The notes under the pieces are model-generated. The model saw only the letters and a program-made list of their open reading frames with translations. It made no database searches and was not told the DNA's origin. A stretch of 31,064 bases of DNA, from positions 1 to 31,064 of the IMG/VR virus record IMGVR_UViG_3300022752_004607, one strand, 5' to 3'. The stretch comes from a virus. This document shows positions 131 to 28,666 of this stretch, piece after piece (the stretch's first letter is position 1; every line of letters starts with the position of its first letter). The position numbers were made by a program, and so were the translations under genes.

Positions 131-160
131 AAAAACCTGCCCCACTTTCGTGAGGCAGGG
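131..160 (-). terminator. Rho-independent terminator after the tRNA-like elements
   Basis: On the minus strand a 10-bp stem (159-150 with 145-136) closes a GAAA tetraloop (149-146). All pairs are Watson-Crick except one G-U. A run of five T follows at 135-131. It sits just downstream of the 190-250 tRNA-like element and ahead of the next promoter, so it would end the transcript begun near 553. Confidence 0.85.
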
Positions 161-189: not shown

Positions 190-250
190 AGTCAGGGCAG
201 GATTCGAACCTGCTGCTGTAATAGTGCGTTTACCCTTCCGCCACCTGACT
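190..250 (-). tRNA. Degenerate tRNA-like element, Leu-type D-arm, anticodon arm missing
   Basis: Seen: acceptor strands AGTCAGG (250-244) and CCTGACT (196-190), extendable by one pair (251/189), and a perfect T-arm GCAGG-TTCGAAT-CCTGC (213-197). The D-arm region GCGGAAGGGTAAACGC resembles tRNA-Leu. Only 12 bases lie between D-arm and T-arm, where about 22 or more are expected, so no anticodon stem-loop can be drawn. Total length is 61 nt. It may be a tRNA-Leu pseudogene with an internal deletion or a tRNA mimic. No CCA is encoded. Its ends match those of the element at 392-511 almost exactly. Confidence 0.45.
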
Positions 251-251
251 G

Positions 252-391
252 GATTGCTTCTTATTCTATTACCCCTTTATATCGAAGCTAACCTGCTTAT
301 CTATGGTAGCAATCTATTCTAATTGCGACTTACACTACGAATTAACGTAGACACCAATAATACGAGTTTTTCAAGGGTACAGGTTATTAGT
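252..391 (-). other. Spacer between tRNA-like elements with inverted repeats; no gene seen
   Basis: No ORF of note. On the minus strand GATTGCT (314-308) pairs perfectly with AGCAATC (258-252), bounding a 63-nt segment with an inner AAGC/GCTT hairpin. A second hairpin, CTACG-TTAATT-CGTAG, spans 350-335. The 63-nt unit is tRNA-sized but has no recognisable T-arm. It could be a linker folded for RNA processing. Confidence 0.35.
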
Positions 392-511
392 AGTCAGGAC
401 AGGATTCGAACCTGCAACGATGCAACCTTTATGACTTCTCGCGTCCAAGTGGTTATGGACCGTGGTGTTTTCAGGATGTGATACCATTTTCACATTACGC
501 ATTACCTGACT
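392..511 (-). ncRNA. Oversized tRNA-like RNA (120 nt) sharing ends with the 190-250 element
   Basis: Acceptor strands AGTCAGG (511-505) and CCTGACT (398-392), again with an extra pair (512/391), and T-arm GCAGG-TTCGAAT-CCTGT (415-399). Between them are 89 bases instead of about 41-45. They contain a strong hairpin ATGTGA-AAATGGTA-TCACAT, whose loop has the GG typical of a D-loop, and a second hairpin GTCCA-TAACCACT-TGGAC. ATGC and GCAT near the two ends could form an inner helix. A canonical anticodon arm could not be placed. Candidates are an interrupted tRNA, a fusion of two tRNAs, or a structured tRNA mimic. Too short for a normal tmRNA, and no tag ORF was recognised. Confidence 0.45.
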
Positions 512-552: not shown

Positions 553-582
553 AATATACGAAATCTCTCTCAGATCTCCAAA
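553..582 (-). promoter_or_regulatory. Promoter-like element, class A (TTTGG-N14-TTTCGTATATT) for the tRNA-like cluster
   Basis: Minus strand: TTTGG at 582-578, 14 bases, TTTCGTATATT at 563-553. The spacer can fold as AGATCT-GAGAG-AGATTT with one G-U pair. The -35-like box lies inside the last codons of the GIY-YIG gene. The first RNA downstream is the tRNA-like element starting near 511, about 41 bases on. Confidence 0.75.
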
Positions 583-1280
583 TTTTCTTTAAATTTCCAT
601 TTAAAACCACCTGCGGTTTTTTGTTTGCCTGAACAGCAATCTTTGATTCCATTTTTCAAACCATTCAATTTCATGTGTGAGTGTGTTGTATGAAATAAAT
701 AAGTAGCTGCGTCTATAACCATGTTAAATTCACCCACCACATTTCCTTCTAAATCTAACTGAATCACTGGTTTGCCATGTGATTTTTTTCTAGCTGCTCT
801 AATGTTTTCTAAATGAGTTTCGCTAAATGGGTTTGGTATGCCCTTTTTGGTTTGGCTTATTTTATCACCCCATGTTACGTTTCTACCTTTTTTAGATTCG
901 CTCATTTTAACTTTAGATCCTTCTGTGAAACGAAATTGTTTTTTATTTTCACTATGTTTTTTCTTTCTTTCTTCTGTCCAAGCTATAGAAATGGTTTCAT
1001 TGTCGTGGTGGTTTGTCAACTTGAAACCTAGATATTTCATATAGCGTATCCAAAACACCTCTAAAAAATCTACATTTTCTATATCTGTTTCCTCTAAAAC
1101 TGTGTTGATAGTTTCAAGGTTGTTTTTTCTATACCACCTACAAAGTTTGTCTGTTTTAGATTTTGTATTTTCTCTCCAAAAATGTTCGTTGATTCTTGTT
1201 GTTACCGGGTTACGTGTTGTTTTACCAACATAACATAAATTTGGGTGGTTTGGAAATTCAATTAAATATATATAAGCCAT
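570..1280 (-). CDS. GIY-YIG homing endonuclease with NUMOD repeats (SegE-like)
   Basis: Predicted free-standing homing endonuclease that would cleave a DNA target and spread itself by gene conversion. The N-terminus carries the GIY-YIG core as YIYLIEF followed by CYVGKTTR. The middle has three NUMOD3-like DNA-binding repeats (around SESKKG, KISQTKKG and SETHLENIRAARK). The C-terminus is a NUMOD1-like helix-turn-helix segment ending GGFKWKF. This is the usual order in T4 Seg-type enzymes. The start at 1280 puts the catalytic fold at the N-terminus; in-frame ATG at 1310, preceded by a GGGG stretch, is an alternative, and a TTG lies at 1328. It follows the DUF932 gene closely and its 3' end holds the promoter of the tRNA-like cluster. 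Confidence 0.85.
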   Translation of the reverse strand: MAYIYLIEFPNHPNLCYVGKTTRNPVTTRINEHFWRENTKSKTDKLCRWYRKNNLETINTVLEETDIENVDFLEVFWIRYMKYLGFKLTNHHDNETISIAWTEERKKKHSENKKQFRFTEGSKVKMSESKKGRNVTWGDKISQTKKGIPNPFSETHLENIRAARKKSHGKPVIQLDLEGNVVGEFNMVIDAATYLFHTTHSHMKLNGLKNGIKDCCSGKQKTAGGFKWKFKENLEI

Positions 1281-1337
1281 GGTCTGTAAAAATGGGGTTC
1301 TATTATACATATTACCCCATTTTCGCAAATCGCATTT

Positions 1338-2141
1338 TTACATGAAACTTTCTGCAAGCTCCCATAATTCACTATTGATTCTAACGTCTTGTTGGAAGTT
1401 TTTAATTTTTCTAGCTTTACGGATTTTAGCACCTGACATATATGTGAATTCACCACTTAGAATTTTTTCCTGGATACGATTAAATACTTCCCATAATCCG
1501 TTTCCTTCATCTTCTTTACGGGTTGGCTCAAGTAGCTGATCCAAGTCTATTTTCACATTGTCCACTTCATCTTCAGTGAATCGAGTTGCAAGTGCTTTTT
1601 TAGCAAATTCAATTGTTTGCTCTTCACTTAGTTGAACCTGTTTCATTTTGTTCATTGATTCAACTGTAAGTGGAAGCTGATCAACTACTACTCGAATCTG
1701 TGCTTGCAATTCTTCAAATGTATAACCCATATGGCGAATTTTCAAATCAGAGAATTCTTGAGTGGAAACAACCAATCCATTTTCACACACCATTCGGAAA
1801 ATTGCACATTTGAATGTAAACGCATTTTTTCCATCGTTTGAATTTGTTAATAGGATTTGTGGAAATACTGTATCACCGTCAGCACCATTAATTACTACAT
1901 CTGGGTTGCGGAATACAACTAAGTGTTTTTGGAACCCTTTTGTTCCTTCTTTTCTAGCTTTTACCTCTTTGGCATCAACTACACCCCATCCTAATTGTTC
2001 CATATCTTCAATCACTCGATTGGTTGGAATGTGGGTAAATTTGTTTGAAACCGTTGGAGCGGCTGTTTCTGTAAAAATTGACTTAGCGCGTTGTTTAATT
2101 TCGCTTGTTGTCAAAAAACTGTCTTGGCTTAAATTTAACAT
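1338..2141 (-). CDS. DUF932-type phage/plasmid protein, copy 1
   Basis: 267-residue protein of the DUF932 (phage/plasmid-like) type, a family common on phages and plasmids with no settled biochemical role. Family-like stretches are the central LTNSNDGKNAFTFKCAIFRMVCENGLVV block and a conserved tail with EDEGNGLWEVFNRIQEKI. The same landmarks recur in the protein at 3140-3889 (LTVTNSCNGSKPINLEMGMYRL-ICSNGAV and EDEGNDLWTVFNRIQENL), so the two are paralogues. It has its own class-A promoter-like element 48 bases upstream. The start context is AATTATG. Function unknown; the pair may act on DNA or on host defence, but nothing in the sequence decides this. Confidence 0.8.
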   Translation of the reverse strand: MLNLSQDSFLTTSEIKQRAKSIFTETAAPTVSNKFTHIPTNRVIEDMEQLGWGVVDAKEVKARKEGTKGFQKHLVVFRNPDVVINGADGDTVFPQILLTNSNDGKNAFTFKCAIFRMVCENGLVVSTQEFSDLKIRHMGYTFEELQAQIRVVVDQLPLTVESMNKMKQVQLSEEQTIEFAKKALATRFTEDEVDNVKIDLDQLLEPTRKEDEGNGLWEVFNRIQEKILSGEFTYMSGAKIRKARKIKNFQQDVRINSELWELAESFM

Positions 2142-13599: not shown

Positions 13600-13753
13600 A
13601 TTCTTCTACTTTAAAAACATTTAAAAAATCATCTACAGGCATTTGTTTAATATCTGCTGCTGTTACGATAGCATCATGTAGACTAGCTGCTTGAAGTTTG
13701 CCTACTGGTTCCTTTTTAGGATCTAGTATATTATAATATATGAATTGTTTCAT
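13568..13753 (-). CDS. Small protein of unknown function
   Basis: 61 residues (MKQFIYYNILDPKKEPVGK). One short alpha/beta module with a basic tail (EEYERRKIQKSK). The start overlaps the stop of the glycosyltransferase above as ATGA, marking the downstream end of the coupled glycan cluster. The next gene begins inside it. No family was recognised. Confidence 0.65.
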   Translation of the reverse strand: MKQFIYYNILDPKKEPVGKLQAASLHDAIVTAADIKQMPVDDFLNVFKVEEYERRKIQKSK

Positions 13754-14508
13754 AAAATAAATTTTTGATTTGTATCTGGGTGGGAATAAATATAACTATT
13801 CCATTTATATTTTGCGTATTCATGCCCTGCTTGTTCTGCTTGTTGTCGTTTTTCTCCATTTGTTGAAACTGAAGCAAAGTGATAAAAATGGCAATTCCAC
13901 GTCCTAATCATCTTTAACCCTGAAATAGAACATTTTAAAAAGAAATCCCAATCGGCTACCATTCCAAGTTCATAATTTTCATCCCATCCACCTAAACGGA
14001 TGTAATCATATTTGTTCATGAAAATAGGTAAAGTTGAACCACACTCTTCTTTTTTGTTTCCTGAAGCATAGTGGTAGTCATATAACCAAAATTTTTCTAG
14101 GTCAAATATTTTTGGATCTGTACCTAAATTTTCAATATGAAATTGTTTAAATATAGAAGGATACGGTTCAATTTGGTTTGGAGAAATTACTGCTCCATCT
14201 TCCCATTCTTCTTCTAATGTAGTATCCCAAAATTTAGGAAACACGTTATCATCGTTTACAATTAATATTTTGTCATATTGGGCGTTATATACTCCTAAAT
14301 TAGTACCTTTACATAACCCAACATTTTCTTCTAAATTTAAAACATCTATATGTTCAGCCCATTTTTCAAGTACTTCTTTGTTGATGTCGTAAAAACCATC
14401 TACAACAGCTATGATTTGATTTTTGTTTTGTTGTCCCTCAATTGCAGAACGCAAACATAAATCTAGAGCATCGGGTGATTTATATGTTGGTATTATAACT
14501 GATATCAT
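13750..14508 (-). CDS. Glycosyltransferase family 2-like (GT-A)
   Basis: 252 residues from ATG 14508, which gives an ATGA overlap with the gene above; a longer reading to 14535 is less likely. The start MISVIIPTYKSPDALDLCLR is the classical GT2 nucleotide-sugar-binding strand. IVNDDNVFP supplies a DDN-type metal site and a later LGGWDENYELGMVADWDFF the acceptor and base region. It would transfer a sugar from a nucleotide donor in the cytoplasm. Last enzyme of the carbohydrate island. Confidence 0.85.
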   Translation of the reverse strand: MISVIIPTYKSPDALDLCLRSAIEGQQNKNQIIAVVDGFYDINKEVLEKWAEHIDVLNLEENVGLCKGTNLGVYNAQYDKILIVNDDNVFPKFWDTTLEEEWEDGAVISPNQIEPYPSIFKQFHIENLGTDPKIFDLEKFWLYDYHYASGNKKEECGSTLPIFMNKYDYIRLGGWDENYELGMVADWDFFLKCSISGLKMIRTWNCHFYHFASVSTNGEKRQQAEQAGHEYAKYKWNSYIYSHPDTNQKFIL

Positions 14509-15200
14509 ATTGTTTCGTGGTTTATTTTTTCCCAATTAATAGTTGGTGATAACAGCCCTTCCATACAATGTGTTGATAATCCAGGGATTGGGGAAAGGAT
14601 AAATCTAGATTTTTCTTCGGATATAGCTAACCATTTATTATGGTCACCTTCTAAAGATACATGGAAATTATAATCTTCTTTCCATAATTTTTTAAGGACA
14701 ATAAAACTTCCACAAGTGCTAGGAGTAGTTCTCCAATGACATTTATTTGAAACAAAAATCTTAGAAGTTAAATCATCATATAAAGGAAGAAAGTACTTAT
14801 CGTTATGGTCATAAAGAGTTAAATAATTTAATCCTTCAAAACAACTAAAAATATCTAAAACATATTCATCCCAATTATCAACATGAAGATAATCATTTTC
14901 TAAAAAATAAATCAAATCATCATCTTGGATAGTATCTAGGTCTAGAGCTATTTTAAACATTTGCCACCCCGCATCTCTCATATTACCTCCAGTTATTTCA
15001 TGAGAAATATATCGATCTTGGTATTTTTTAACCCAATTATCTTCAATTTTTCCATCCATAATCAAATGCAAATCTATATCTTTACCTTCTATAGTATTCA
15101 ATAGATTAATAAAACATTTTTCATAATCGAACCAATAGGGCCTTACTTTATTATCAGTTCCTGTGACATTATAATGGCTATAAAATATATGTATTTTCAT
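14505..15200 (-). CDS. Glycosyltransferase-like protein (GT-A)
   Basis: 231 residues, beginning MKIHIFYSHYNVTGTDN. A GT-A-like fold is suggested by the first strand and by DLIYFLENDYLHVDNWDEYV, where ENDY stands at the DxD position; later TCGSFIVLKKLWKED is typical of acceptor-side loops in sugar transferases. The DxD is weak (E-N-D), so activity or metal use may differ. It follows the propeller-type glycosidase gene by nine bases. Confidence 0.65.
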   Translation of the reverse strand: MKIHIFYSHYNVTGTDNKVRPYWFDYEKCFINLLNTIEGKDIDLHLIMDGKIEDNWVKKYQDRYISHEITGGNMRDAGWQMFKIALDLDTIQDDDLIYFLENDYLHVDNWDEYVLDIFSCFEGLNYLTLYDHNDKYFLPLYDDLTSKIFVSNKCHWRTTPSTCGSFIVLKKLWKEDYNFHVSLEGDHNKWLAISEEKSRFILSPIPGLSTHCMEGLLSPTINWEKINHETI

Positions 15201-15209
15201 ATTGTGAAT

Positions 15210-16139
15210 TTAATTAATTTTTTTACAAAATCCAAATCCTTCTTTACCGTATCCATTTCCACTATAAAACATTAGTAATTGTTTTTGGATTTCAATAATA
15301 TAAGGGTAACAAACCATTTCACTATCCCATCCATTTTCTGAATTAGTTATGGTATTGAGGTGATCTTGGCGTTCCCAATTTAATTTATCTAGGGATGAGG
15401 CATATCCCATTTTATAATTTTCTCCTTTATCAAGTTTTTCTCTATACCCATACCACATATGGTATTTATTATTTATTTTTTTAACACAAGGCGCACCTAA
15501 TGTTTCATTGTTATGGGTAGGGAAAACACAAACATTATCATTAAATTCCCAATCCAATCCATTAAATGATGTAGCAAATCTAATATCATATGTAGGTCTA
15601 TAATGGTTATTTATGTTAGCCCAAGAATTATAATGAGTATACCACATATTGAATTTTCCATTTTCAATAAGGATACTAGATTTAGCTACCCCAAATGGGG
15701 AAAAACGATTTAAACCTATAATAGGACCATCACTTATTTTTTGGAAATTAACTCCATCATCACTTAATGCTAATCCAAGAGTAGTAATATAAGGTACAGT
15801 ACTACTTCGTTGCCAACCTAAATAATATAACCAATATTTGTTTTTATAAAATAAAATTTCACTCATCATAGTACCATGTTCATCAAATGAACCGGGTTTC
15901 CCTAGGGAAAGTAATGGTTTGTTATGGATGGAGATAATTTTATTAGGGTCGTTTTTATCACAATCTAAAAAAGTAATTTTAGTTTCATAGTTTCCATTAT
16001 TATCTAAAATAGATCTAGTGGTAAAATATACCCTAATAAAATCATCAAATTCAATAGGACATACTTGAGCAGCATAATGGTTCATCCAATCAATATCTCC
16101 TTTAGGAGAAAATATTTGTCCTATTTTTGACCAATTCAT
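15210..16139 (-). CDS. Five-bladed beta-propeller glycosidase-like protein (GH43/GH32/GH130 type)
   Basis: 309 residues with repeated blade signatures: YWLYYLGW, FNMWYTHYNS, YHMWYGYREK and LLMFYSGNGYG. Family-like acidic positions are near DIDWMNHYAAQV at the N-terminus and SFDEHGTMMSE. Such proteins hydrolyse, phosphorolyse or transfer furanose or mannoside sugars. In polysaccharide gene clusters they are sometimes non-catalytic. No signal peptide, so it acts in the cell. The start overlaps the methyltransferase above as ATGA. Confidence 0.75.
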   Translation of the reverse strand: MNWSKIGQIFSPKGDIDWMNHYAAQVCPIEFDDFIRVYFTTRSILDNNGNYETKITFLDCDKNDPNKIISIHNKPLLSLGKPGSFDEHGTMMSEILFYKNKYWLYYLGWQRSSTVPYITTLGLALSDDGVNFQKISDGPIIGLNRFSPFGVAKSSILIENGKFNMWYTHYNSWANINNHYRPTYDIRFATSFNGLDWEFNDNVCVFPTHNNETLGAPCVKKINNKYHMWYGYREKLDKGENYKMGYASSLDKLNWERQDHLNTITNSENGWDSEMVCYPYIIEIQKQLLMFYSGNGYGKEGFGFCKKIN

Positions 16140-16705
16140 TTTTTAGTTATTTCAAGTATTATAGAGTCATATTGTCCTTTTTCTCTTAAATCAAAAACTT
16201 TATAATCACTTATATTTTCATCTACACTTTGCACTAAAAAATCTAATGATTCTTCAGGAGATAATTTATTGTCATTTTCATCTTTACACCCTATGTCTTC
16301 AATAATTAATTTCCCTCCAGATTTAAGTTTTTTAAACCAATGTTGAATTACATATTTTTGAGTTTCTGGGGTATGGGGGCCATCATCTATAATGAAATCA
16401 AAAGTATCATTTTCATATAAATCTAAAGCAAAATCAGTGTATGCATCTATTTTAGTAAAATGAATATTTGAATTAGATGGAATATATTGATCTATATCTA
16501 ATCCATAAATTTCTCCTTTAGTAAACCAACCACTCCACATTAAAAGTGATATACCTGATCTAATCCCTATTTCTAAAAGTTTAATATTTTGATGAGTTAA
16601 GTTATTGAAAACATTATCATAATATTCTGTTATATATGGGTGAGGGTCATATTTAGTATTATTAAACACTAAATTATTATTAATAACATATTCTGAAAGT
16701 TTCAT
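16136..16705 (-). CDS. Class I SAM methyltransferase
   Basis: 189 residues. Motif I is LLEIGIRSGISLLMWSG, followed by an acidic end of strand 2 (IYGLDID), motif for strand 4 FDFIIDDGPHTPETQ, and strand 5 GGKLIIEDIG. This is the Methyltransf_24 type found with sugar or macrolide methylases. It probably methylates a sugar hydroxyl. The start overlaps the dioxygenase gene by four bases (16705-16702). Confidence 0.85.
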   Translation of the reverse strand: MKLSEYVINNNLVFNNTKYDPHPYITEYYDNVFNNLTHQNIKLLEIGIRSGISLLMWSGWFTKGEIYGLDIDQYIPSNSNIHFTKIDAYTDFALDLYENDTFDFIIDDGPHTPETQKYVIQHWFKKLKSGGKLIIEDIGCKDENDNKLSPEESLDFLVQSVDENISDYKVFDLREKGQYDSIILEITKK

Positions 16706-17481
16706 TTATTTTTATTTTTTTTATCGTTATTTGCTTTTCTAATTAGCCTATAATCTAATGTAGATGTTGGAACCAATGAATCAAACCCCATTAACATATT
16801 TAAAAATGGATCCTTAGGTGCCTCAAAATTAAGCAATGCTGGGATGTCTATTTGTTGTTTGAATAGGTATTTAGTATATAAATGGTTAAGGCCTATTCTT
16901 TTTTCTTGGGAAATATTTATTCCTGTTCTATGGAATAGCATAGTATTAAATAAAAATACGGAACCTGCTTTTGATTCAATACTAATACCATGTTTAGAAA
17001 AATAATCGTCTGAAGGGATGTACTTGATTTTATGTGAATGGGGAAGTAATTGAGTAGCCCCTGTTTCAAAAGTAAAATCTGTAAGACAAAAGAAAGCATT
17101 TACTGCCAGTATAGGGTCACTTACATAATGCATGTTGGGGAAATCTCTATGCCATTTATTTTGACTATGAGTAAGATTTGGTTCAACCATTACTCCATTT
17201 TGTTGGCTTAAGATAAAATAATCTCCTAAAGTTTCTTTAATAAAAGGAATGATTTTAGGATTATTCAGTGTTTTATAAAAAACATCATCATAAGCGAATG
17301 GGGCCCTAACAATATTATTTTCAGCTATTTCTCTTATATCAAATTTATCCGAAACTTCTTGTTCTTGAATTTTCCAAGTTCTTTCAAGTTGAGTTATAAT
17401 TTCTTGAGTTTCTTCAGTTGTAAGAACATTTTCAATTAAAGTATAACCTAATATATCTAACTCTTCTAAATGATTTTTCAT
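16702..17481 (-). CDS. Phytanoyl-CoA dioxygenase-like Fe(II)/2-oxoglutarate oxygenase
   Basis: 259 residues. The Fe(II) triad is visible: H111-x-D113 in KWHRDFPN and H184 in MLFHRTGIN, with R195 (QEKRIGLNH) as the likely 2-oxoglutarate anchor. This PhyH family oxidises small molecules, lipids or sugars. In a glycan cluster it may hydroxylate or oxidatively tailor a sugar or its lipid carrier, but the substrate is unknown. Confidence 0.85.
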   Translation of the reverse strand: MKNHLEELDILGYTLIENVLTTEETQEIITQLERTWKIQEQEVSDKFDIREIAENNIVRAPFAYDDVFYKTLNNPKIIPFIKETLGDYFILSQQNGVMVEPNLTHSQNKWHRDFPNMHYVSDPILAVNAFFCLTDFTFETGATQLLPHSHKIKYIPSDDYFSKHGISIESKAGSVFLFNTMLFHRTGINISQEKRIGLNHLYTKYLFKQQIDIPALLNFEAPKDPFLNMLMGFDSLVPTSTLDYRLIRKANNDKKNKNK

Positions 17482-17491
17482 GGTTTATAAT

Positions 17492-18154
17492 TTAAAAATT
17501 AACTTCAAAAGCTATTTCATCCGTAAAGAACCAACAGTTATGGCAAAATATAACACGTTTATCTAATTTTTTAGCGCAGTCATTAACTGCTCTTTTAACA
17601 GAATCCCAAGTATAATCATCACCAGTTAATTGAGCATTAGGCCAATTTTCATAACACATCATAATATCTCTAGTTACTCCTTCGTAGCTATGGTCAGCAT
17701 CGATGAATATTAAGTCAACAGGTAGATCATATGGTTTAACACTTTCTAAACCTGTAGGAGTTTTAGCTCTTATTGGGGTTAGATGATTACGGTGTTCCCA
17801 AGTATTGTAGATGAATGAGTCCCAAATTTTAGGGAGTTGAAGTAACTCAGGATCATTTTCTGCATATGTAGTTGTTCCACCATTTCCATGATCATCTACA
17901 TTTGGACTCCAATGGTCAAAACATAGAATGTGGGAATCAGGAGCCTGTTCTAATAAGAATTTAGTTGAACCTGTTCCTGTCCAACTTCCTAATTCAGCAA
18001 TGAATCGAGGTTTTAACCCTTGTATAAAATGTTTTAATACAGCAGCACTAGCTCCTGTAAACCACCCATTCACTTCAGGCATAATGTCTGGTTTTTGATC
18101 AGGCCATTGATACAATGACTTTACTTGTTTGATTTGTTCTTTTAATTTATCCAT
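17492..18154 (-). CDS. Class I SAM methyltransferase (Methyltransf_24-like)
   Basis: 220 residues. Motif I is FIAELGSWTGTGSTKFLLE, then ILCFDHWSPN, and a characteristic VDLIFIDADHSYEGVTRD block as in macrocin O-methyltransferase relatives; the DADHSYE acidic cluster often binds a divalent metal. It likely methylates a sugar hydroxyl. It sits between the acyltransferase and the dioxygenase genes with a gap of only two bases on one side and ten on the other. Confidence 0.85.
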   Translation of the reverse strand: MDKLKEQIKQVKSLYQWPDQKPDIMPEVNGWFTGASAAVLKHFIQGLKPRFIAELGSWTGTGSTKFLLEQAPDSHILCFDHWSPNVDDHGNGGTTTYAENDPELLQLPKIWDSFIYNTWEHRNHLTPIRAKTPTGLESVKPYDLPVDLIFIDADHSYEGVTRDIMMCYENWPNAQLTGDDYTWDSVKRAVNDCAKKLDKRVIFCHNCWFFTDEIAFEVNF

Positions 18155-18156
18155 TT

Positions 18157-18801
18157 TTATTTGATTTTTTTGGCTGGGGAGCCTATATATGTGCTATTTG
18201 GTTCGGTTGATTTGGTTACTACACTTCCCATTCCTATTATACAATTTTCTTCTATAGTAACCCCATCTCTTATACAGGAATTAACTCCTAAAAATGCTCC
18301 TTTTTTAATATGGCAATGTCCTGATATTACAACATGGGAGGTAAAGAATACATTGTCTTCTATTATTGAATGGTGACCAATATGGTTTCCACTCCATAAT
18401 ACAACATTATTACCAATTATAGTAAAAGGTTGTAGGGTATTATCTTCTAATATAAAACAATTTTCTCTAATTTCGGAAGCAAGATTAGTACATTTTGATG
18501 AAATATAAGATGTAAATTTGTATCCCATTTCTTTCCCTTCATTGTATATTTTTTCCCTTAAAACATTATCAGTTACAGGAGCAAATAAATAATATTCAGA
18601 TGAAGGATATAATTCATTTAAATCTTCAAAAGGAATTACAGGGAGTCCTTTAAATGTATCTTCTTTAATAAATTCCTTATTGACAGTAAATGCAACGGGA
18701 AGTGAATTATTATGTCCTAATTTAAATTCATGAAAGAAATAAAAATGGGCTAATTCTGCTAAATCATTTACCCCAAAAATAATAATGTTATTTGTAAACA
18801 T
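18157..18801 (-). CDS. NeuD/PglD-like sugar O- or N-acyltransferase (left-handed beta-helix)
   Basis: 214 residues from ATG 18801 (MFTNNIIIFGVNDLAEL); starts at 18816 or 18843 are possible. An N-terminal Rossmann-like domain (NIIIFGVNDLAELAHFYF) is followed by hexapeptide repeats from about residue 115 (IIGNNVVLWSGNHIGHH, then VVISGHCHIKKGAFLGVNS, then GVTIEENCIIGMGSVV), ending IGSPAKKI. This is the layout of NeuD and PglD, which acetylate sialic or diamino sugars with acetyl-CoA. The start overlaps the end of the methyltransferase gene above by 14 bases. Confidence 0.85.
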   Translation of the reverse strand: MFTNNIIIFGVNDLAELAHFYFFHEFKLGHNNSLPVAFTVNKEFIKEDTFKGLPVIPFEDLNELYPSSEYYLFAPVTDNVLREKIYNEGKEMGYKFTSYISSKCTNLASEIRENCFILEDNTLQPFTIIGNNVVLWSGNHIGHHSIIEDNVFFTSHVVISGHCHIKKGAFLGVNSCIRDGVTIEENCIIGMGSVVTKSTEPNSTYIGSPAKKIK

Positions 18802-19399
18802 ATGCTGTGTATTCATAAAGTTTATAATCGTTTCTAATAACAAAATTTCTACTTAAGTTATTTTTCAAAAACCATCCTAATTCATCTAAAGAAACATGAA
18901 ATAAATCATCTCGTTCCCAATCAACATGTTTGGACATTAAATTAAAAGCTATTCCTTTATCACATTTATTCCATAGTTTAATCAATGCTGAGGTAAAGAA
19001 TTCCATCATTTCCTCTTGGGTTAAATCTCTTTTTTCTGTGAATGTTCCATTACATACAATGTAATCAAAATTAGGTAGATTATCTTCTTGTAAAATATCT
19101 AAACAATAAAAATCTAAGTATGGATACTTTGCTTTACAGGTATCACAAAACCCTTTACTAATGTCTAACCCAGAATATTTAATATGAGGTAAAAGAGTAG
19201 TTGACTTAATATATTCAAAGAAATGTCCTAACCCACACCCAAAATCAAGAAGCGAACAATCTTGTTCTTTAATCAATTCTAACATGACTTCATGGCGAAT
19301 TAAAGTATCTTGATAATTAGGCCAATCAACTCCTAAATTACTATCTCCATGTTCTTGAAAACATTTATCATAATGTTCTGCTAATTTTAGATATTTCAT
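18788..19399 (-). CDS. Class I SAM methyltransferase
   Basis: 203 residues. Motif I is LLDFGCGLGHFFEYI, the acidic end of strand 2 is YSGLDISKGF, then FDYIVCNGTFTEKRD and a helical tail. The Cys in DFGCG is typical of small-molecule methylases. It resembles ubiquinone/sugar methyltransferases. The gene overlaps the WbqC-like gene by four bases and its 3' end holds the start of the acyltransferase. Confidence 0.85.
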   Translation of the reverse strand: MKYLKLAEHYDKCFQEHGDSNLGVDWPNYQDTLIRHEVMLELIKEQDCSLLDFGCGLGHFFEYIKSTTLLPHIKYSGLDISKGFCDTCKAKYPYLDFYCLDILQEDNLPNFDYIVCNGTFTEKRDLTQEEMMEFFTSALIKLWNKCDKGIAFNLMSKHVDWERDDLFHVSLDELGWFLKNNLSRNFVIRNDYKLYEYTAYVYK

Positions 19400-20064
19400 A
19401 TAAGAGTGTAATTTTTAAGTTGTTGTTGAATGTGTTCTTTAGGGTATCTAAAAAGCAAATCAAGTATTGAAGCGTATGGGTTATCAAAATCAACATCCCC
19501 CATTTGTATAAATTTAAGATCTATATTTTGGATAGCAAAATCTTCTTTAGTGTATAATTTTTTACCCCCAATAGCATTTATATAAGTACTTCCATTAAAA
19601 TGTTTTGTTATATCTTGTAAACCTTCATTCTTTTTTCTAATGGTAAGGCCTTCCGAGGAATCTATTATTTGGGTTGTAATACCAAGATAGTTACATATTC
19701 GTTTAATATAAAATAGATTAACTTGGGAAATTGAATACCCAAAACTACTTACATCAGTGATAAAAATTTGTTGGATTATATCTTTAAAATTTTTTTCCTT
19801 ACCATATAAATTATGTAAAGTTTTAGGAAAATTAACTATAAATTTGCCATCAGATTTTACTATAACTTCATTGCACTTTTTATTTTGGCTACCCCCAATA
19901 ACAGGAATATTAATTTGAGTATTGTTTTTTAAAGTGTTTCTAGTCATGTAACTTCGTTTCATAAAATTCACATGATCTAAATTAACATATGTATCAACAG
20001 CATCTATAAGTTGAAAATAACCTATATAGGGGAAAAAATAAGGTTGCATTATTCCTACCTTCAT
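19396..20064 (-). CDS. WbqC-like protein
   Basis: 222 residues with the family's start MKVGIMQPYFFPYIGYFQLI and internal VDTYVNLDHVNFMKRSYMTRN, as in WbqC, a family in O-antigen and capsule clusters. Its biochemistry is unsettled; proposals include glycine or amino-acid transfer to sugars. Next to a DegT-type aminotransferase it may modify the amino group. It overlaps its neighbours by one and four bases, so all three are coupled. Confidence 0.9.
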   Translation of the reverse strand: MKVGIMQPYFFPYIGYFQLIDAVDTYVNLDHVNFMKRSYMTRNTLKNNTQINIPVIGGSQNKKCNEVIVKSDGKFIVNFPKTLHNLYGKEKNFKDIIQQIFITDVSSFGYSISQVNLFYIKRICNYLGITTQIIDSSEGLTIRKKNEGLQDITKHFNGSTYINAIGGKKLYTKEDFAIQNIDLKFIQMGDVDFDNPYASILDLLFRYPKEHIQQQLKNYTLI

Positions 20065-20699
20065 TATCTATTAGCTTTGGTATAAACTTCAAATTTAGAT
20101 AGATCTGGGTAAGGGAGTTCTAGATCTTGATTAATTTTTTTAGTCCCATCATTATTATAAAACTGGTTCATTAAAAGTAAACCTCGAGCAGCTAATTCAG
20201 GCATCATGTAAAAATTCCAACCTAACATGTCAAAATAATCTTCATGATATGAACATTCTCTACGACCTGAGTATCTAGCTCTTTTAAACCACATATAAGC
20301 ATCTTCATTATCTGTTAAGATAGCTCCACCTTTAGATAATTTAAAATGTTTATAGGGGCCTGTAAATGAAATACACATATGTGTTCCTGGTTTATACATG
20401 TCTGCAGTAAAGCATAAAGCAGAATCCCATACATTTGTTGGTTCTAATTGGTATGCTCCTTTAAGGAATTTTCCTTTAACAGGTTTAAATTTTACTTTCC
20501 CCCCAGCATGGATAATTTCACATGGAACTGAGGGATAAGTACGAGATGGGATTGTAATTTCTTGTCCTTTAATATTTTCATACATTAAAGCTAGGAATAA
20601 AGCATTTGATTGGTTATCTACAGTTACAACATAAGGTGCTCCTGTATAGTCTGAAAGTGCTTTTTCAAATTCAACTGTTATATCATATACGTTTTTCAT
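20064..20699 (-). CDS. Short DegT/DnrJ/EryC1-type PLP sugar aminotransferase
   Basis: 211 residues, against about 370-400 for the family. The N-terminal PLP domain is complete: DNQSNALFLALMY, a PSRTYPSVPCEIIHAGG substrate-side strand, and the lysine block SFTGPYKHFKLSKGGAILT with K117 as the likely PLP lysine. The usual C-terminal small domain is missing, and no frameshift is evident because the next gene begins cleanly. It could work as a homodimer, act as a sensor, or be a fragment. AGGTTATG start. Confidence 0.75.
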   Translation of the reverse strand: MKNVYDITVEFEKALSDYTGAPYVVTVDNQSNALFLALMYENIKGQEITIPSRTYPSVPCEIIHAGGKVKFKPVKGKFLKGAYQLEPTNVWDSALCFTADMYKPGTHMCISFTGPYKHFKLSKGGAILTDNEDAYMWFKRARYSGRRECSYHEDYFDMLGWNFYMMPELAARGLLLMNQFYNNDGTKKINQDLELPYPDLSKFEVYTKANR

Positions 20700-20711
20700 A
20701 ACCTAAATATA

Positions 20712-22256
20712 TTAATTTTTTAATGAATTTCCAAATTTGTTTAATTCATTTTGAAAATTTTCATGAGCTATTTTTTTAAATTCATCCTGTCTATTTATTA
20801 CTTTTAAATAGTTTTTATATGGGTTAAATCTAAATAATTGATCTTCTACTACTACTTCATTTTCAAGAATGTACTGGGTGATAGGGGTTCCATTTTGTTT
20901 GAGCATTTCAAAGCAACACATCAAATATGTGTCTTCTAATCCATAATGTCCTAATTCTTTAGGTATATTCACCATTTTAGCTAATTCAGAACTAATAACT
21001 GTAGCTAAACCACCTCCAAATTTAAAAATACTTATAGGTTGGAGACTAACATCACCAAAACAATTAGAATATCTATATGGGTCTCTAAATTTAAATAAAT
21101 CTCCAGATTGTTCATGGTGGTAACTTGGATGTACTAATACTTTCCAACTATCATCCCATAATGGGGAAATTTGAGGAGTTAAAATATAGTAAGGATTTTC
21201 TATTACTTTAATAGAACTAAGAACATGGAATAATAGATACGGGGATATTACAATATCAGCATCTATGGTAAGAAGAGCTTTTGAATTAGTATTTTTAATA
21301 ACCTCTCTTCTATGAGAAACACATCCTAAAATTGTTTGGTTATCATTTGCTTTAAAATCAGTAATTGCCCAAGTTTTAGTTAAACGTTCTAGTTGAAATA
21401 ATTTATCAACAAAATATGATTTAGGGAATGTTGAATTATCCCAATCTACTAAATTTAAATTTAATAAAACATCAACTAATATAGTGTCTTCTTCTGTTAA
21501 AAATTTAGAATTGTGTTTTAATTGTGTTAAAAGAACTTCTAATTGATCAATTTCATATGGCATTACATGAATTAATATATGTAGATCAATTTCATTTAGT
21601 ACTTCTTTACATTTTTTTACAAAACGATTTGTATGTTCACTATTATTTCTAGATTCAAAATTATGAAATATTAAGTCTTCATATGTGCTAGCAATGCCAA
21701 AATATGTTTCATTTTTTAAAGGCCAATATGGGACTTCACAATTTGAAAATTTAAAAAATTTAATTTCAATACCTTTTTCTCTACTAAGATAACTAAGTTC
21801 CTCAGCAACATCACTTCTAAGAGTTTCATTGTATGCAGGTTGTCCTAATTCGTTATACGTTTCTTTAGAAATAGCAAAACAAGCAGGACCAGCATATGGG
21901 ATAGTATCAGGTAAACGGTTTGAATGTTGTTCAATTCCTATAATAGCATGTTTTCCATGGATTCGATCAAGAATTACATCTATGAAATTAGATTTTAATG
22001 GAATAGCATCTGCATCAAAGAATATTAAATAATCAACATCTTCATTTCGAGAAAGTTCTGTTAATAATGTTCCATGTGAATTAAATCCTTTATTAAGTAA
22101 ATTAGGTTCTACTAGGATTTGATTAATTTCAATACCAAATTTATCAAATACTTTCTTTTGATAAGAAATAAATCTAGGATCTAAACTAGCAAAGTATGCT
22201 GTGTAAATACCTATTTTAAAATCTTTTCCATTTCTAATTATGTGATTATATTTCAT
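20712..22256 (-). CDS. Two-domain glycosyltransferase (two GT-A units)
   Basis: 514 residues. The first half has a GT-A start (KIGIYTAYFASLDPRFISY) and metal site FFDADAIP; the second has ALLTIDADIVIS and GLEDTYLMCCFEM, a typical GT2 acceptor/base motif. Two DAD sites mean two active sites, probably adding two residues in turn, like bifunctional chondroitin or capsule polymerases. Its start overlaps the GT2 gene above by four bases and it lies 12 bases before the aminotransferase. Confidence 0.75.
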   Translation of the reverse strand: MKYNHIIRNGKDFKIGIYTAYFASLDPRFISYQKKVFDKFGIEINQILVEPNLLNKGFNSHGTLLTELSRNEDVDYLIFFDADAIPLKSNFIDVILDRIHGKHAIIGIEQHSNRLPDTIPYAGPACFAISKETYNELGQPAYNETLRSDVAEELSYLSREKGIEIKFFKFSNCEVPYWPLKNETYFGIASTYEDLIFHNFESRNNSEHTNRFVKKCKEVLNEIDLHILIHVMPYEIDQLEVLLTQLKHNSKFLTEEDTILVDVLLNLNLVDWDNSTFPKSYFVDKLFQLERLTKTWAITDFKANDNQTILGCVSHRREVIKNTNSKALLTIDADIVISPYLLFHVLSSIKVIENPYYILTPQISPLWDDSWKVLVHPSYHHEQSGDLFKFRDPYRYSNCFGDVSLQPISIFKFGGGLATVISSELAKMVNIPKELGHYGLEDTYLMCCFEMLKQNGTPITQYILENEVVVEDQLFRFNPYKNYLKVINRQDEFKKIAHENFQNELNKFGNSLKN

Positions 22257-22876
22257 AACTGGTCGTATAACTGATTTTGTTTTTCTTGTCGTTTAATTGT
22301 TTTTGAATGATAAAGTGCAAAGTATTCTACATCGGGCATTGCTGTATACTGTTTAAAACCATCTAAACGCTCGTGTACTTTATTTACCCATACGATTTCA
22401 GGTTTATTTTTCCAAATACGCCATTGGTAATCAGGCCAATTAACCCATCCAGCATCGTTTACTCTCCAGCCCCATTTTTGAATGTGTTCGGAAGTTAAAC
22501 CTTCTACTGTGTTTACTCGGGGTACTAGAAAAACATCAACTTCGTTGTTTTCTTCTAATACTTCAGGTAACACAGCAATCAGATTTTCGTTAGGAATTTC
22601 ATCAGCATCAATTTGAAAAATATAATCGCCATTACAAAAACCAGATAATTTGTTTTTCCAGTCTGCAAAGTGGCGATCAAATTTTCCTTTGTGCCAAGAG
22701 AACTCACCGTTTATAGAATGGGTTCTTAAGAAATTTTCCACTTCGGGGTCACCATTTGCTTCATCAAATAAAATTACTATATTGTCTTGTATACGTTTGT
22801 GTTGAAGCAAAAAATTCACTAAACGTTGAATTTCAACAAATTCATTACAGACTGTGATTGCATAACTAATTTTCAT
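22253..22876 (-). CDS. Glycosyltransferase family 2-like
   Basis: 207 residues beginning MKISYAITVCNEFVEIQRLV, with DYIFQIDADEIPNENL (DAD metal site) and VNWPDYQWRIWKNKPEIVWV, a pattern seen in GT2 enzymes of the WaaE/KdtX kind that add heptose or glucose to LPS cores. It is shorter than WaaE. Acts in the cytoplasm on a nucleotide sugar. Confidence 0.85.
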   Translation of the reverse strand: MKISYAITVCNEFVEIQRLVNFLLQHKRIQDNIVILFDEANGDPEVENFLRTHSINGEFSWHKGKFDRHFADWKNKLSGFCNGDYIFQIDADEIPNENLIAVLPEVLEENNEVDVFLVPRVNTVEGLTSEHIQKWGWRVNDAGWVNWPDYQWRIWKNKPEIVWVNKVHERLDGFKQYTAMPDVEYFALYHSKTIKRQEKQNQLYDQL

Positions 22877-22881
22877 ATATC

Positions 22882-23346
22882 TTATTCAGGTAATATCCCA
22901 ATATAAGAAAGAGCTTCAATATAGTCACGCTCTTCAAACATTTTCATGTTTTTCATATCCATTTTGAATTTCATAAATTCTCCTGGTTTTCCTGGAATTG
23001 GGTGTTTTTCTCTGTCTTCTTCAGGGATTTCAATAGCTTTAACAGCTGCCCACCCCCAATTTGAAATACTTGAACCATTAGCAAACACCATACCTTGCTC
23101 AGGATTGTTAATAGTGTTTGGTAACCATATTAATCCTGTTTCAGGATCAGTCCAAGCTAAATCTTTATACAATTCAGGTAACGTTTCCATTTGTTGTTTG
23201 TAAAACTCATGGTCTTCGGTCATAAATGAGTTTGTCCAAAATCCACAAGATAAACTCATGTAGTTATATATTTCAGGGGCAACCTGTACTTTATAGCACA
23301 AGTTACCTCCTGATTTAGGGCAGTCAATTATTTCTTCGTGTTGCAT
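22882..23346 (-). CDS. Unknown protein within the glycan island
   Basis: 154 residues, with no family recognised. A pair of cysteines in IIDCPKSGGNLCYKV could bind metal, and an N-terminal part is rich in aromatic residues (YNYMSLSCGFWTNSFM). The acidic and Met-rich C-terminal half (MKFKMDMKNMKMFEERDYIE) is probably helical. It overlaps the start codon of the 430-residue glycosyltransferase by one base, so it belongs to the same transcript, but it shows no carbohydrate motif. Confidence 0.7.
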   Translation of the reverse strand: MQHEEIIDCPKSGGNLCYKVQVAPEIYNYMSLSCGFWTNSFMTEDHEFYKQQMETLPELYKDLAWTDPETGLIWLPNTINNPEQGMVFANGSSISNWGWAAVKAIEIPEEDREKHPIPGKPGEFMKFKMDMKNMKMFEERDYIEALSYIGILPE

Positions 23347-24638
23347 TAGGCTTCTACTTTTTTAAGTTTTGGTAATTCAATTTTTTTCAACTTAGGTAAC
23401 TGTAATTGTACCTGTTTTGGAAATTCAGGAATTTTATCTTCAAACAATTTACCTAATTTTTCTTTCATAGCATCAAATGAAAATTTGGTACGTGATTGAA
23501 AACCTTGTCGTTTTGCTTTTTCAGCATATCCTTTATAGTTTTCAAATACATCTTTTAAATAACTTCCTACATGACCTGTATCAACACTAAACCATTCTGC
23601 ATCCGCTAATAACATATTGTTTGCTGCTGAAGGGTGTACTTTGGTTAAGTTACCTGGTAAAAGTGTAACAAATTCAGGGTTTAAATAGTCAATATGGCCA
23701 CTCCAATTTGTTGTAATGATTGGTTTATTTACTAATGAAAATTCAAGTAATGGACGACCAAATCCTTCTCCTTTAGTTAAATTAACCATTGCTTTAACTT
23801 TAGGGTGGTTATAGATTTCGTTCATTTCTACATCTGTAAATTCACCATGTAACAAATAAACGTTTGGTAAATTATTTGATCTTACTGTTGCTTTAATTGC
23901 TTGAATACGTTTAATTAATTCATCTCTATCTATATAAGAGGATCCTACAGTTGATGTTTTTAAAATCAAGGCAGGTTTTTTAGTTTTGTTTTTAAACGTT
24001 TCGTAAAACGCTTTTACTAATAATCCTACATTTTTTCTATCTTCACCTAAATGTCCTTGCATCCAATGTCCTACAAACAAATAAGCAAATTCTTCTTTTA
24101 CATTCGATAAATCAAATGTTGATTTTACGGGGGTATATTTTTCAGTGTCTGCACCTTCAAAAATTACTTCACTATCACCTTTCCATTCAATAAACCCTAC
24201 TGTTTGGTTTGTTTGTTGATCGCGTTTTTCAAATTTACTTTCTTTTAATACTTTAATAGTATGTTCAGAAGAACCTAAAATTAAATTCATCCGTGAACAA
24301 CCTTCAATCCATTCAGCGGGTGCAACTGTTGTTTCAATTCCAGCTGTACATCCAATATTGTATTTTCCTACTGGTTGAAATTCATTTGGAACTGTAATTT
24401 GCATCCAAATTTCAGGTTGTGATGGTAATTGTGGTTGTTGTAAGATATGACTCACTAAAAATTCCCACTCTGGATTATCTTTAATAAATCCAAATGGAGT
24501 ATTTCCCCATCGTTGAGGTGCAATTTTTACATCATACTTATCTAGTTCAATAATCGCTTTAACGATATCGCGAGAACGTGCTCCATATCCTGAATATGTG
24601 TCGATAGGGCAGCTTATTACAAATGTTGGTTTACTCAT
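23346..24638 (-). CDS. GT-B glycosyltransferase (GT4-like)
   Basis: 430 residues. The C-terminal half has the GT4-type donor site VNLTKGEGFGRPLLEFSLVNKPI, with the E-x7-E spacing, plus FVGHWMQGHLGEDRKNVGLL typical of the loop after the first strand. It carries an N-terminal PIDTYSGYGARSRDIVKA, an acceptor-domain motif. The C-terminal tail contains repeats of lysine, leucine and proline (KKIELPKLKKVEA). Follows the 479-residue GT by five bases. Confidence 0.85.
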   Translation of the reverse strand: MSKPTFVISCPIDTYSGYGARSRDIVKAIIELDKYDVKIAPQRWGNTPFGFIKDNPEWEFLVSHILQQPQLPSQPEIWMQITVPNEFQPVGKYNIGCTAGIETTVAPAEWIEGCSRMNLILGSSEHTIKVLKESKFEKRDQQTNQTVGFIEWKGDSEVIFEGADTEKYTPVKSTFDLSNVKEEFAYLFVGHWMQGHLGEDRKNVGLLVKAFYETFKNKTKKPALILKTSTVGSSYIDRDELIKRIQAIKATVRSNNLPNVYLLHGEFTDVEMNEIYNHPKVKAMVNLTKGEGFGRPLLEFSLVNKPIITTNWSGHIDYLNPEFVTLLPGNLTKVHPSAANNMLLADAEWFSVDTGHVGSYLKDVFENYKGYAEKAKRQGFQSRTKFSFDAMKEKLGKLFEDKIPEFPKQVQLQLPKLKKIELPKLKKVEA

Positions 24639-24643
24639 AACTT

Positions 24644-26083
24644 TTAATATACAAATTCGTGATCAATTGTGTCTTCTTTAACTTCATTAACGTTGATTAA
24701 CTCATATTTTTCTCGCGGAGTCCACGTGTTAAATAATTTATCTATCGCGTGAATTGCTCTAACTCCCATATGTTCTCCTGTAAAACCTGCTTCATTTACA
24801 GCCCAATGTCTTCCTGTTTTACCAAGTTCTTTTCTCAGTTTTCTATCCAACGCATATACTTCAGAAATTCGTGCTGCTGCGTCTTCAGCAGTACATCTAT
24901 CATCCCAAATATAAGGTGTTTTAGGTGAACCTTGAATTGAGCGGTTTGTTGGATAAACCGGAAACGCCCATGAACCATGGTTTTTGTAACGGCCTGTATG
25001 ATTTGAAGGTATTTTTGGTGATGGTGTATACCAGTTTCCATATTCATCTTCAAAACGCATTTGATCTTGCATGCCACCTGTTACGTTTGCTATAATTACA
25101 GTTCCTGCTAACATTGCTTCTGTTAATGATAACCCCCAACCTTCATTTGAAGTCAATAATATTTGAGCATCTGCAATGTTGTAAAGTTGGTTTAACTGTT
25201 TGTTGTTTAACTTATTTGTTGAAAAATAAATTGCTTTAGGGTATTTTGGAAACAATACTTTTCTAACTGCTTCTAAATCTGTTCCATGTTCGCTTACAAT
25301 TTCGGTATGCATTACCATAGCACATTTGTCTGCTTTTTCTTTTGGTAATGTATCTAAAAACAATCTAAAAGCTAACATTGTATCCGGAATTTGTTTACGT
25401 CGAATGTTTCTTGAATTAAAAAACACTACAAAATCCTTTTCCTCGTCTCCAAAAATTTGTTTTTTAAACGCTTCAAGTTCTTTTAATTCATTTTCCTTTT
25501 CAATCGGATAGTACATTTCATGGTTTAATCCATGAGGAACATAGTGAATCACTTTGTTTTTAGCTTTTTCACCTAAAACAAGTTCATTGATTAACCTTGT
25601 TTGTTTTGAAATTGCTAGTAACGCATCACACGACTCGTAAAATGCTTTGTTATACAACGGTGCCGGATAATCATCCCAGATGTTCAAATAAATGATTGGC
25701 ATTTGTTTTCTAATCTCGTTTTCAATTTGAAATAACCATTCAAAATACCTTGGATCAGTAATTAACATGATTGCATCTGGTTGTTCAATTGAAATTAACT
25801 GACGGATCAAATCTGGGTTTCCATATCCATCAACCGGATACAAGAAAACAGAAGCATCTGTTAAACCTGTGTTTGCGTCGGTGTCTTTAGAAATGTCAAA
25901 TCGTTTTCCTTTTTCAGGATGATTTATTGCTCCTGCAATGTTAACCCAATTAAAATGTTGGGCTGTGTTTAAAACTAATTCGCGTGCTACTGTAGCTACA
26001 CCGGAGTGTACTCTAATGTCGTCGCAAATTAGCATGATTTTTTTCCGCTCGTTTTGCGGTAGGTACTTAAAACTTGAATTCAT
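24644..26083 (-). CDS. GT-B glycosyltransferase (GT4-like), first gene of the island
   Basis: 479 residues. GT4 landmarks: KIMLICDDIRVHSGVATVAR (N-terminal strand and loop), YVPHGLNHEMYYP (donor loop), and LLTSNEGWGLSLTEAMLAGT (E-x7-E donor site). Its ATG at 26083 follows 32 bases after the ribbon-helix-helix gene. It may transfer the first sugar of a chain. No signal peptide, so it is cytoplasmic. Confidence 0.85.
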   Translation of the reverse strand: MNSSFKYLPQNERKKIMLICDDIRVHSGVATVARELVLNTAQHFNWVNIAGAINHPEKGKRFDISKDTDANTGLTDASVFLYPVDGYGNPDLIRQLISIEQPDAIMLITDPRYFEWLFQIENEIRKQMPIIYLNIWDDYPAPLYNKAFYESCDALLAISKQTRLINELVLGEKAKNKVIHYVPHGLNHEMYYPIEKENELKELEAFKKQIFGDEEKDFVVFFNSRNIRRKQIPDTMLAFRLFLDTLPKEKADKCAMVMHTEIVSEHGTDLEAVRKVLFPKYPKAIYFSTNKLNNKQLNQLYNIADAQILLTSNEGWGLSLTEAMLAGTVIIANVTGGMQDQMRFEDEYGNWYTPSPKIPSNHTGRYKNHGSWAFPVYPTNRSIQGSPKTPYIWDDRCTAEDAAARISEVYALDRKLRKELGKTGRHWAVNEAGFTGEHMGVRAIHAIDKLFNTWTPREKYELINVNEVKEDTIDHEFVY

Positions 26084-27349: not shown

Positions 27350-28003
27350 TTAAAGTTGGGATTCAATATAATCTTTTACTTCTTGACTTACATCATCAGC
27401 ATCTGGGAATTCATCATCAAATTCAACTAAGATATTATCTATAATGTCGGTATCAAAGAACCCTGCATCTATTAAGTCTTCTAACTTTCCATCTTTTTTA
27501 GCACTTTGAATAGCATCATCAATGTATGCCTTTATTTTTGAAGTTAATGGGATTTCATCTGGGGATTCATCTTCAGGTTTTTCATAAAAATCTTCTATAA
27601 CTTTTCTATACATTCCTATGGTGATACCTTCAATTGGGACATTTGGGTTACCTAGTGATTCATAATCATCTTCTGTTCCTGGGTAAGCAAAGTCAGTAAA
27701 CTCACCAGCCACATCCAAAGATTCTTCACCATATCCTAAAAATTCACAAAATTTAACTACATTTTCATGAATCCATAGATATTCATAGTCGTCATCATAA
27801 AGATCTTCAGGAGTTCTTTTTCTAAATAATATCCCAAGTGCTTTATTTCTGTCATCAAACATGGTGTTAGAAGCTTCATTTAATTTAGCTTTATATTGAC
27901 TTTCAGTAATGATACCAGCCAACATTTGCATACGTAATAGTTCTTGTGTCATTTTATCTAGATTTTTATTATACATATGAGCAACTGTTAATTTGTTTAC
28001 CAT
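27350..28003 (-). CDS. Putative virion-internal protein with shared N-terminal motif, acidic
   Basis: 217 residues. Residues about 23-44 read LRMQMLAGIITESQYKAKL, a motif shared with the proteins at 28069 and 28900. After it the protein is acidic (DLYDDDYEYLWIHENV, FDDEFPDADDVSQEV) and has no membrane segment. The I-T-E site within the motif fits the (I/L)xE cleavage pattern of T4 prohead protease, so it might be a capsid-targeting sequence removed on maturation. Bounded by terminators at both ends, so it is a self-contained unit. Confidence 0.65.
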   Translation of the reverse strand: MVNKLTVAHMYNKNLDKMTQELLRMQMLAGIITESQYKAKLNEASNTMFDDRNKALGILFRKRTPEDLYDDDYEYLWIHENVVKFCEFLGYGEESLDVAGEFTDFAYPGTEDDYESLGNPNVPIEGITIGMYRKVIEDFYEKPEDESPDEIPLTSKIKAYIDDAIQSAKKDGKLEDLIDAGFFDTDIIDNILVEFDDEFPDADDVSQEVKDYIESQL

Positions 28004-28014
28004 ATGTTAAAGAT

Positions 28015-28042
28015 AAAAAAAAGCCTGCCGGTAGGCAAGCTT
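28015..28042 (-). terminator. Rho-independent terminator, twin 2
   Basis: Minus strand: 9-bp stem (28042-28034 with 28029-28021, one G-U) with loop TACC, followed by eight T at 28022-28015. It ends the 28069-28632 gene. Only two loop bases differ from twin 1, and the flanks match too. Confidence 0.9.
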
Positions 28043-28068
28043 TTCTTAAATTTTATTCTATTTTAAAA

Positions 28069-28632: not shown

Positions 28633-28666
28633 TTTTTGTTTGTTTTTCTAATATACATATATGATT

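Follow-up and report, generated by a model that had tools for sequence, protein, structure and literature searches.

Anticodon-less tRNA-like RNAs of phages and their interchangeable inserts

A stretch of viral DNA of 31,064 nucleotides (nt) (IMG/VR virus record IMGVR_UViG_3300022752_004607, positions 1 to 31,064; hereafter the window) contains two elements, A and B, that combine the ends of a transfer RNA (tRNA) with non-canonical middles. On balance, we lean toward the view that both belong to a superfamily of tRNA-like RNAs, specific to phages and devoid of an anticodon, in which tRNA scaffolds display interchangeable effector modules. Three aspects of this organization are established, as predicted RNA features, by comparison of the sequences: 1) the constancy of a tRNA body comprised of the acceptor stem, the T arm, usually a D arm or a substitute for it, and N73-C74; 2) the replacement of the anticodon arm, and sometimes of the D loop, by structured modules that are swapped among scaffolds, sites and phages; and 3) the arrangement of the family together with tRNA genes. 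The window, whose 31 kb show no close match among cultured phages, has nearly all its genes on the minus strand, and A and B are read from the same strand. Their parts are:

250..190, minus strand: element A, a 61-nt anticodon-less tRNA-like RNA (Rfam tRNA 40.9 bits, anticodon arm missing)
250-244, 241-226 and 225-214, minus strand: acceptor 5′ strand, D arm and 12-nt insert of A
213-197, 196-190 and 189, minus strand: T arm, acceptor 3′ strand and N73 (G) of A
511..392, minus strand: element B, a 120-nt tRNA-like RNA
511-505, minus strand: acceptor 5′ strand of B; further parts of B are a GCG/TGC stem, a D-like hairpin GTGA-AAATGGTA-TCAC and the insert module
425..476, minus strand: insert module of B, ACACCACGG-hairpin-CGAGAAGT (34 viral stretches and a phage tmRNA)
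415-399, 398-392, 391 and 390, minus strand: T arm, acceptor 3′ strand, N73 (A) and the C of B

A preliminary description of this DNA had reported that the two elements were alike in their 3′ parts and 5′ acceptor strands, and that each had an ideal T arm and a non-canonical middle, of 30 nt in one (too short for an anticodon arm) and 89 nt in the other. These points are borne out: the 24-mers at the 3′ side are identical at 23 of 24 bases, the 5′ acceptor strand is AGTCAGG in each, both T arms are perfect, and the middles measure 30 nt in A and 89 nt in B, with no anticodon arm (5 base pairs (bp), 7-nt loop) in either. The 8-bp acceptor stem that had also been described is indeed paired, but is really a stem of 7 bp plus a -1:73 pair; it was discarded as a special trait, the same pair being found in 743 of 1033 ordinary tRNAs of these phages. 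Element A keeps its D arm (GCG GAAGGGTAAA CGC), after which there are just 12 nt up to the T arm. The Rfam tRNA model (RF00005) gives it 40.9 bits (gathering score 29), with an alignment that deletes the anticodon arm and covers a 7-bp acceptor, a 5-bp T arm with a TTCRANN loop and a GG-bearing D loop. Element B reaches 13.1 bits, below the gathering score, with the acceptor and T arm present and the D arm atypical; the added hairpin with a D-loop-like sequence noted earlier corresponds to AAATGGTA. ARAGORN calls neither element, and neither, with middles of 30 and 89 nt, is matched as a transfer-messenger RNA (tmRNA) by Rfam (RF00023) or ARAGORN.

Relatives were gathered from IMG/VR viruses via neighbouring genes, blast and pattern scans, and comprise at least 376 distinct elements that have a T arm and an acceptor resembling AGTCAGG/CCTGACT. 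Among the 376 elements listed, the acceptor strand AGTCAGG is present in 338, the T arm ACAGGTTCGAATCCTGT in 179 and A73-C74 after the acceptor in 343, and the middles are hypervariable, spanning 22-158 nt. N73 plus C likewise follows the acceptor in most of the ordinary tRNAs of these phages. A D arm of the tRNA-Leu type, TGGCGGAAT(T)GGTAGACGC, is found in most family members. A geometric search of those loci, independent of the acceptor sequence, recovered 694 tRNA-shaped elements, versus 12 with the acceptor strand reversed, an excess beyond chance. By the geometric test, an anticodon arm is present in 381 of the 417 elements with other acceptors, versus 22 of the 277 AGTCAGG-type elements from the same loci, and canonical anticodon arms occur in 6 of 260 parsed members, with 4.45 expected by shuffling. 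Given this difference, and a frequency close to chance, the loss of the anticodon arm is therefore a property of the AGTCAGG class.

The pairing of the stems was evaluated in a set of 332 elements picked without any pairing requirement. The T-stem positions are paired in 325-328 of these, with 292-323 expected under independence, and the acceptor positions in 311-329, with 304-317 expected; the paired positions alternate among A-U, G-C, U-A and C-G. For the family of element B, 99.1% of cells are paired in the proposed structure, 8 pairs are altered on both sides, and the pairing exceeds that of 500/500 shuffles (0/500 as good) and of all slid controls. Its acceptors include TGTCAGG/CCTGACA, GGTCAGG/CCTGGCC and AGTCAAG/CTTGACT. 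Such compensatory changes in the acceptor and T stem show selection on the folded RNA, as predicted from the alignments.

Searches with a T-arm/acceptor pattern (at most 2 mismatches) found 1-12 copies per record in 20 records, a count that takes in a few less certain places; the reversed control pattern had no match in 20 records. In multi-copy loci the copies all face the same way (83/83), and wherever a tRNA gene lies within 1 kb of a copy, the two share a strand (172 of 172 copies). One locus taken whole, L277, carries twelve anticodon-less elements among many ordinary tRNA genes in 13.9 kb. An exact pattern search of 84,980 bacterial and archaeal genomes retrieved 8 contigs, all from metagenome-assembled genomes (MAGs) and most named Bacteroidota, and within 395 Bacteroidota genomes the T-arm/acceptor pattern was found in one besides the seed MAG. 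In cultured-phage records no match spans most of any AGTCAGG-type element. As judged from the sequences sampled, the AGTCAGG class is viral. The earlier proposal that A and B are made on purpose and mimic tRNAs is supported by their membership in a conserved virus-specific class having covarying stems, tRNA-like 3′ ends and strict co-orientation with tRNA genes. Separately, the cultured Tenacibaculum phage pT24 (L383) has two near-identical 'tRNA-Undet' genes (190-268 and 557-635), the anticodon region of which folds as a tight hairpin (GGGTATATTACCC); their acceptor is not that of the family.

The inserts fall into approximately 269 clusters, of which 55 recur and the other 214 are singletons, and many of the recurring inserts display compensatory pair changes. 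An example is the CTATACGTAG family, in which one helix takes the form GTAAC/GTTAT, GGTAC/GTACT or GAACAC/GTGTTC and the loops are constant. On average the inserts fold more stably (mean z -0.71) than segments drawn at random from these loci (mean z -0.21; p = 1.4e-7). Certain elements have a second insert within the D loop (L102, L238, L275, L279 and L337). Rfam has no family for the inserts; matches to NsiR1, YrlA, Trp_leader and the like fell below gathering scores and were taken as chance. A k-mer search for a motif common to the inserts recovered chiefly leftovers of the D arm (TAGACGC).

The insert module of element B, with the form ACACCACGG(T/C)CC-loop-GGACRCGAGAAGT, is near-invariant in the 34 viral stretches located by pattern search. 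It is contained in 16 distinct element sequences, which have diverged in both the D part and the acceptor, and relatives that do not have it (L007, L008, L012 and L034) show a short loop at the corresponding point. It is also present once inside a phage tmRNA (L360 1628-2056, minus strand), immediately ahead of the long helix's 3′ strand; this RNA matches the Rfam tmRNA model with E 6.9e-36 and encodes the tag GNVELSEMTFEDAIEFVNEYDMAA. ARAGORN makes tmRNA calls in six further loci (L133, L182, L193, L294, L298 and L321). A covariance model of the module, among the source sequences of which were the window and the L360 tmRNA, scores the window at 74.4 bits (9.3e-17), and across 265 sources it retrieved known copies only, with no distant forms; the module is therefore sharply bounded. 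Its presence in varied scaffolds and in a tmRNA therefore points to a discrete RNA unit moving between stable RNAs. Cultured-phage records gave no convincing match to the module, and none of the 395 Bacteroidota genomes contains it.

The exchange of inserts is best seen at one orthologous site, for which the relevant features of the window are:

1338..2141, minus strand: DUF932 gene, the anchor for the orthologous site in relatives
570..1328, minus strand: open reading frame (ORF) between the DUF932 gene and B, with a GIY-YIG-like N-terminal motif recognized by eye
553..583, minus strand: promoter-like motif TTTGG-N-TTCGTATATT upstream of B (motif 562..553)
252..391, minus strand: B-A spacer of the predicted common transcript, with possible helices judged by eye
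131..159, minus strand: intrinsic terminator after A, CCTGCCTCACGAAAGTGGGGCAGG TTTTT (159..136 plus T run)

Just after the DUF932 gene, close relatives (L003, L004, L007/L008, L009, L010, L011 and L018) carry RNAs of at least six different kinds, framed by similar flanks (GCTGCCTAAG ... CTTCATAACC...TTTTC), and the same site in the window is occupied, in this order, by the additional ORF (570-1328), B and A. More structured-looking RNAs are seen in the interval that separates the DUF932 gene from the tRNA-like element in L007 and L008 (in both, upstream of the element), and likewise in L012, L002-L004 and L018; these have long closing stems (AATAGAAGGC...GCCTTCTATT; AGTGGAT...ATCCACT) or a common block ATCGTCGCAAGTAGAACCGACGGCCGCG, and vary between relatives. 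The ORF is possibly a homing endonuclease: its C-terminus has a weak match to phrog_20162 HNH (E = 9e-5), and comparisons with Pfam, NCBIfam, PDB and T4 SegB lend this identity no support. As described earlier, A and B are bracketed by one promoter-like motif (562..553) and one terminator (159..136). The TTCGTATATT motif occurs 8 times in the window, always on the coding strand (562, 99, 2198, 3112, 4916, 5167, 5605, 11758, minus), its copies being preceded by TTTGG or GGAATAG at a distance of about 20 nt. It is strongly enriched across related loci, with 643 occurrences in 7.4 Mb of strands versus about 27 expected from base composition. Judged by eye, the spacer possibly forms an H-type pseudoknot (AACCTG/CAGGTT with TACCCTT/AAGGGGTA). 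Elsewhere on the minus strand of the window, three successive ORFs (27350-29859) have the motif LRMQMLAG(V/I)ITES(Q/E)YK at or near the N-terminus, and a long run of carbohydrate-related genes (13750-26083) includes glycosyltransferase, methyltransferase-like, aminotransferase-like and dioxygenase-like ORFs.

Established tRNA biology suggests how such RNAs might work. The tRNA body would be a scaffold, processed by host RNase P and the 3′-end/CCA machinery to give a short, stable RNA with defined ends, and the module would be the working part, binding a protein or small molecule in trans in the manner of an aptamer. In view of the great diversity of the modules and their rapid turnover at a fixed site, this binding would most likely serve to interfere with host targets that vary, for instance proteins of defence or RNA metabolism; this is the least certain step. 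We infer that the modules probably bind proteins or ligands and perhaps serve in counter-defence.

Several considerations weigh against this reading. A few of the at least 376 elements listed are misparsed, the anticodon arm counted in 381 of 417 versus 22 of 277 elements is a geometric criterion, and a few members (L051:1217, L104:1753), with near-normal anticodon arms, resemble plausible ordinary tRNAs. The effect on insert folding stability is modest, and with 214 of 269 clusters being singletons, the structure of most individual inserts is a prediction. The expression, processing, CCA addition and stability of these RNAs are predictions, and the binding partners of the modules are putative. 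Finally, the high conservation of the acceptor raises the prospect that the tRNA body is recognized in its own right, beyond any scaffolding role.

This last point is the basis of the main rival explanation, which we consider rather unlikely. It assigns the activity to the tRNA body, with the elements being mimics that act as decoys or inhibitors of enzymes that recognize the acceptor, the elbow or the T arm (aminoacyl-tRNA synthetases, the CCA enzyme, and tRNA-modifying or tRNA-degrading defence proteins), and leaves the insert no role other than to block decoding or tune stability. The occurrence of AGTCAGG in 338 of 376 elements and the near-constant T arm go beyond the needs of a pure scaffold, and the acceptor, D and T parts are tRNA recognition surfaces, but common descent plus recombination could also hold the acceptor constant. 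Moreover, the conserved structured modules common to scaffolds and a tmRNA are left unexplained, as are the up to 12 copies per phage with mostly unrelated inserts. A decoy for RNases, as suggested in the preliminary description, is conceivable in a general form, but one for anticodon nucleases is unlikely, as the elements lack the very part that those enzymes cleave.

Alternatively, compact RNAs that set hypervariable inserts within an otherwise constant frame might be base-pairing small RNAs, with the tRNA body stabilizing an antisense or guide insert directed against host or phage transcripts. However, the phage loci gave 258 minus-strand matches, some of them unmasked family members, versus 214 in a Markov control, with no clear antisense excess, and the recurrent inserts keep their helices by compensation and their loops constant, as expected of structures rather than free guides; we regard this explanation as quite improbable. 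A still more doubtful alternative places the function at the DNA level, with the constant ends being recombination or integration sites and the RNA incidental. It draws on the swapping of inserts between similar flanks at the DUF932 site and on the adjoining possible homing endonuclease, but does not account for the compensatory changes in the acceptor and T stem, or for the strand agreement with tRNAs (172/172) and among copies (83/83). Recombination between the constant ends may nevertheless be the route of module exchange.

Slightly less credible again is the proposal that the elements are precursors of decoding tRNAs. In that case the insert would be removed as an intron, or trans-splicing would join the halves to an anticodon arm made elsewhere. 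The insert does sit at the position of the anticodon arm, and the near-normal L051:1217 and L104:1753 fit this proposal. However, removal of the insert restores no anticodon arm, because canonical arms are at chance level; the inserts are far smaller than group I introns; and no complementary half-tRNA was noticed, no dedicated search having been made. Least probable of all, and rejected here, is the decay of one ancestral tRNA into pseudogenes; tRNA decay was an option also raised in the preliminary description. The tRNA-Leu-type D arm of most members does point to a class II tRNA origin, but hundreds of elements share one acceptor and no anticodon arm, their ends covary and are strongly conserved across viruses, the recurring inserts are conserved as structured RNAs, and the adjoining ordinary tRNAs are intact.

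The favoured reading, of tRNA scaffolds displaying interchangeable modules, can be set beside several known systems. RNA C (species 1 RNA) and RNA D (species 2 RNA) of T4 are two single, small stable phage RNAs beside tRNA genes, and segB, a GIY-YIG endonuclease gene, lies one tRNA away from them. RNA C has a perfect T arm, a tRNA-like 3′ end and a non-tRNA interior, an architecture similar to that predicted for A and B; unlike theirs, its acceptor is only partly paired, and RNA D has no T arm. Comparison by eye revealed no sequence kinship of the T4 RNAs with A and B beyond the T arm. The bacterial tmRNA (SsrA) also combines a tRNA acceptor and T arm with the absence of an anticodon, whereas A and B are far shorter and have neither a tag reading frame nor a chain of pseudoknots. 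To our knowledge, no series of interchangeable inserts is known for RNA C and RNA D or for tmRNA. Class II tRNA (tRNA-Leu) has in common with the family the D arm TGGCGGAATTGGTAGACGC, A73, the T arm and a 7-bp acceptor, but the family lacks the anticodon arm and its acceptor sequence differs from that of the ordinary tRNA-Leu genes of these phages. A further parallel of the same layout is the engineered tRNA scaffold, in which the anticodon stem-loop is swapped for a chosen RNA and host enzymes process and protect the product (PMC3753655). This construct keeps the acceptor stem, T and D arms, with precise processing and nuclease resistance (PMC3753655). It is man-made, whereas the phage family is natural, viral and hugely diversified. 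The tRNA-like structures of plant RNA viruses are the 3′ parts of RNA genomes, unlike the family elements, which are free-standing genes in DNA phages. A review presents those plant-virus structures as viral tRNA mimicry (PMC5723415).

The open-licence literature yielded no description of this RNA class, and an earlier account elsewhere is possible. We know of no other widespread bacterial or phage RNA class with tRNA ends and no anticodon, tmRNA aside; the family would thus be the second such class, and a far more diverse one. It would supply a natural precedent for the engineered tRNA scaffold, along with a basis of comparison for the long-standing puzzle of RNAs C and D of T4. The inserts, which number in the hundreds and in dozens of cases are recurring and structured, are candidates for a search for partners. 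Ordinary tRNA finders miss or mislabel such elements, which may constitute an RNA-based layer of phage-host conflict. We tentatively raise the possibility that phages of probably Bacteroidota hosts possess in them a fast-evolving, tRNA-scaffolded aptamer library, its members standing where the anticodon arm would be (or within a phage tmRNA) and each binding and disabling different host proteins or signalling molecules; if true, it would parallel, at the level of RNA, the varied proteins by which phages inhibit host defences.
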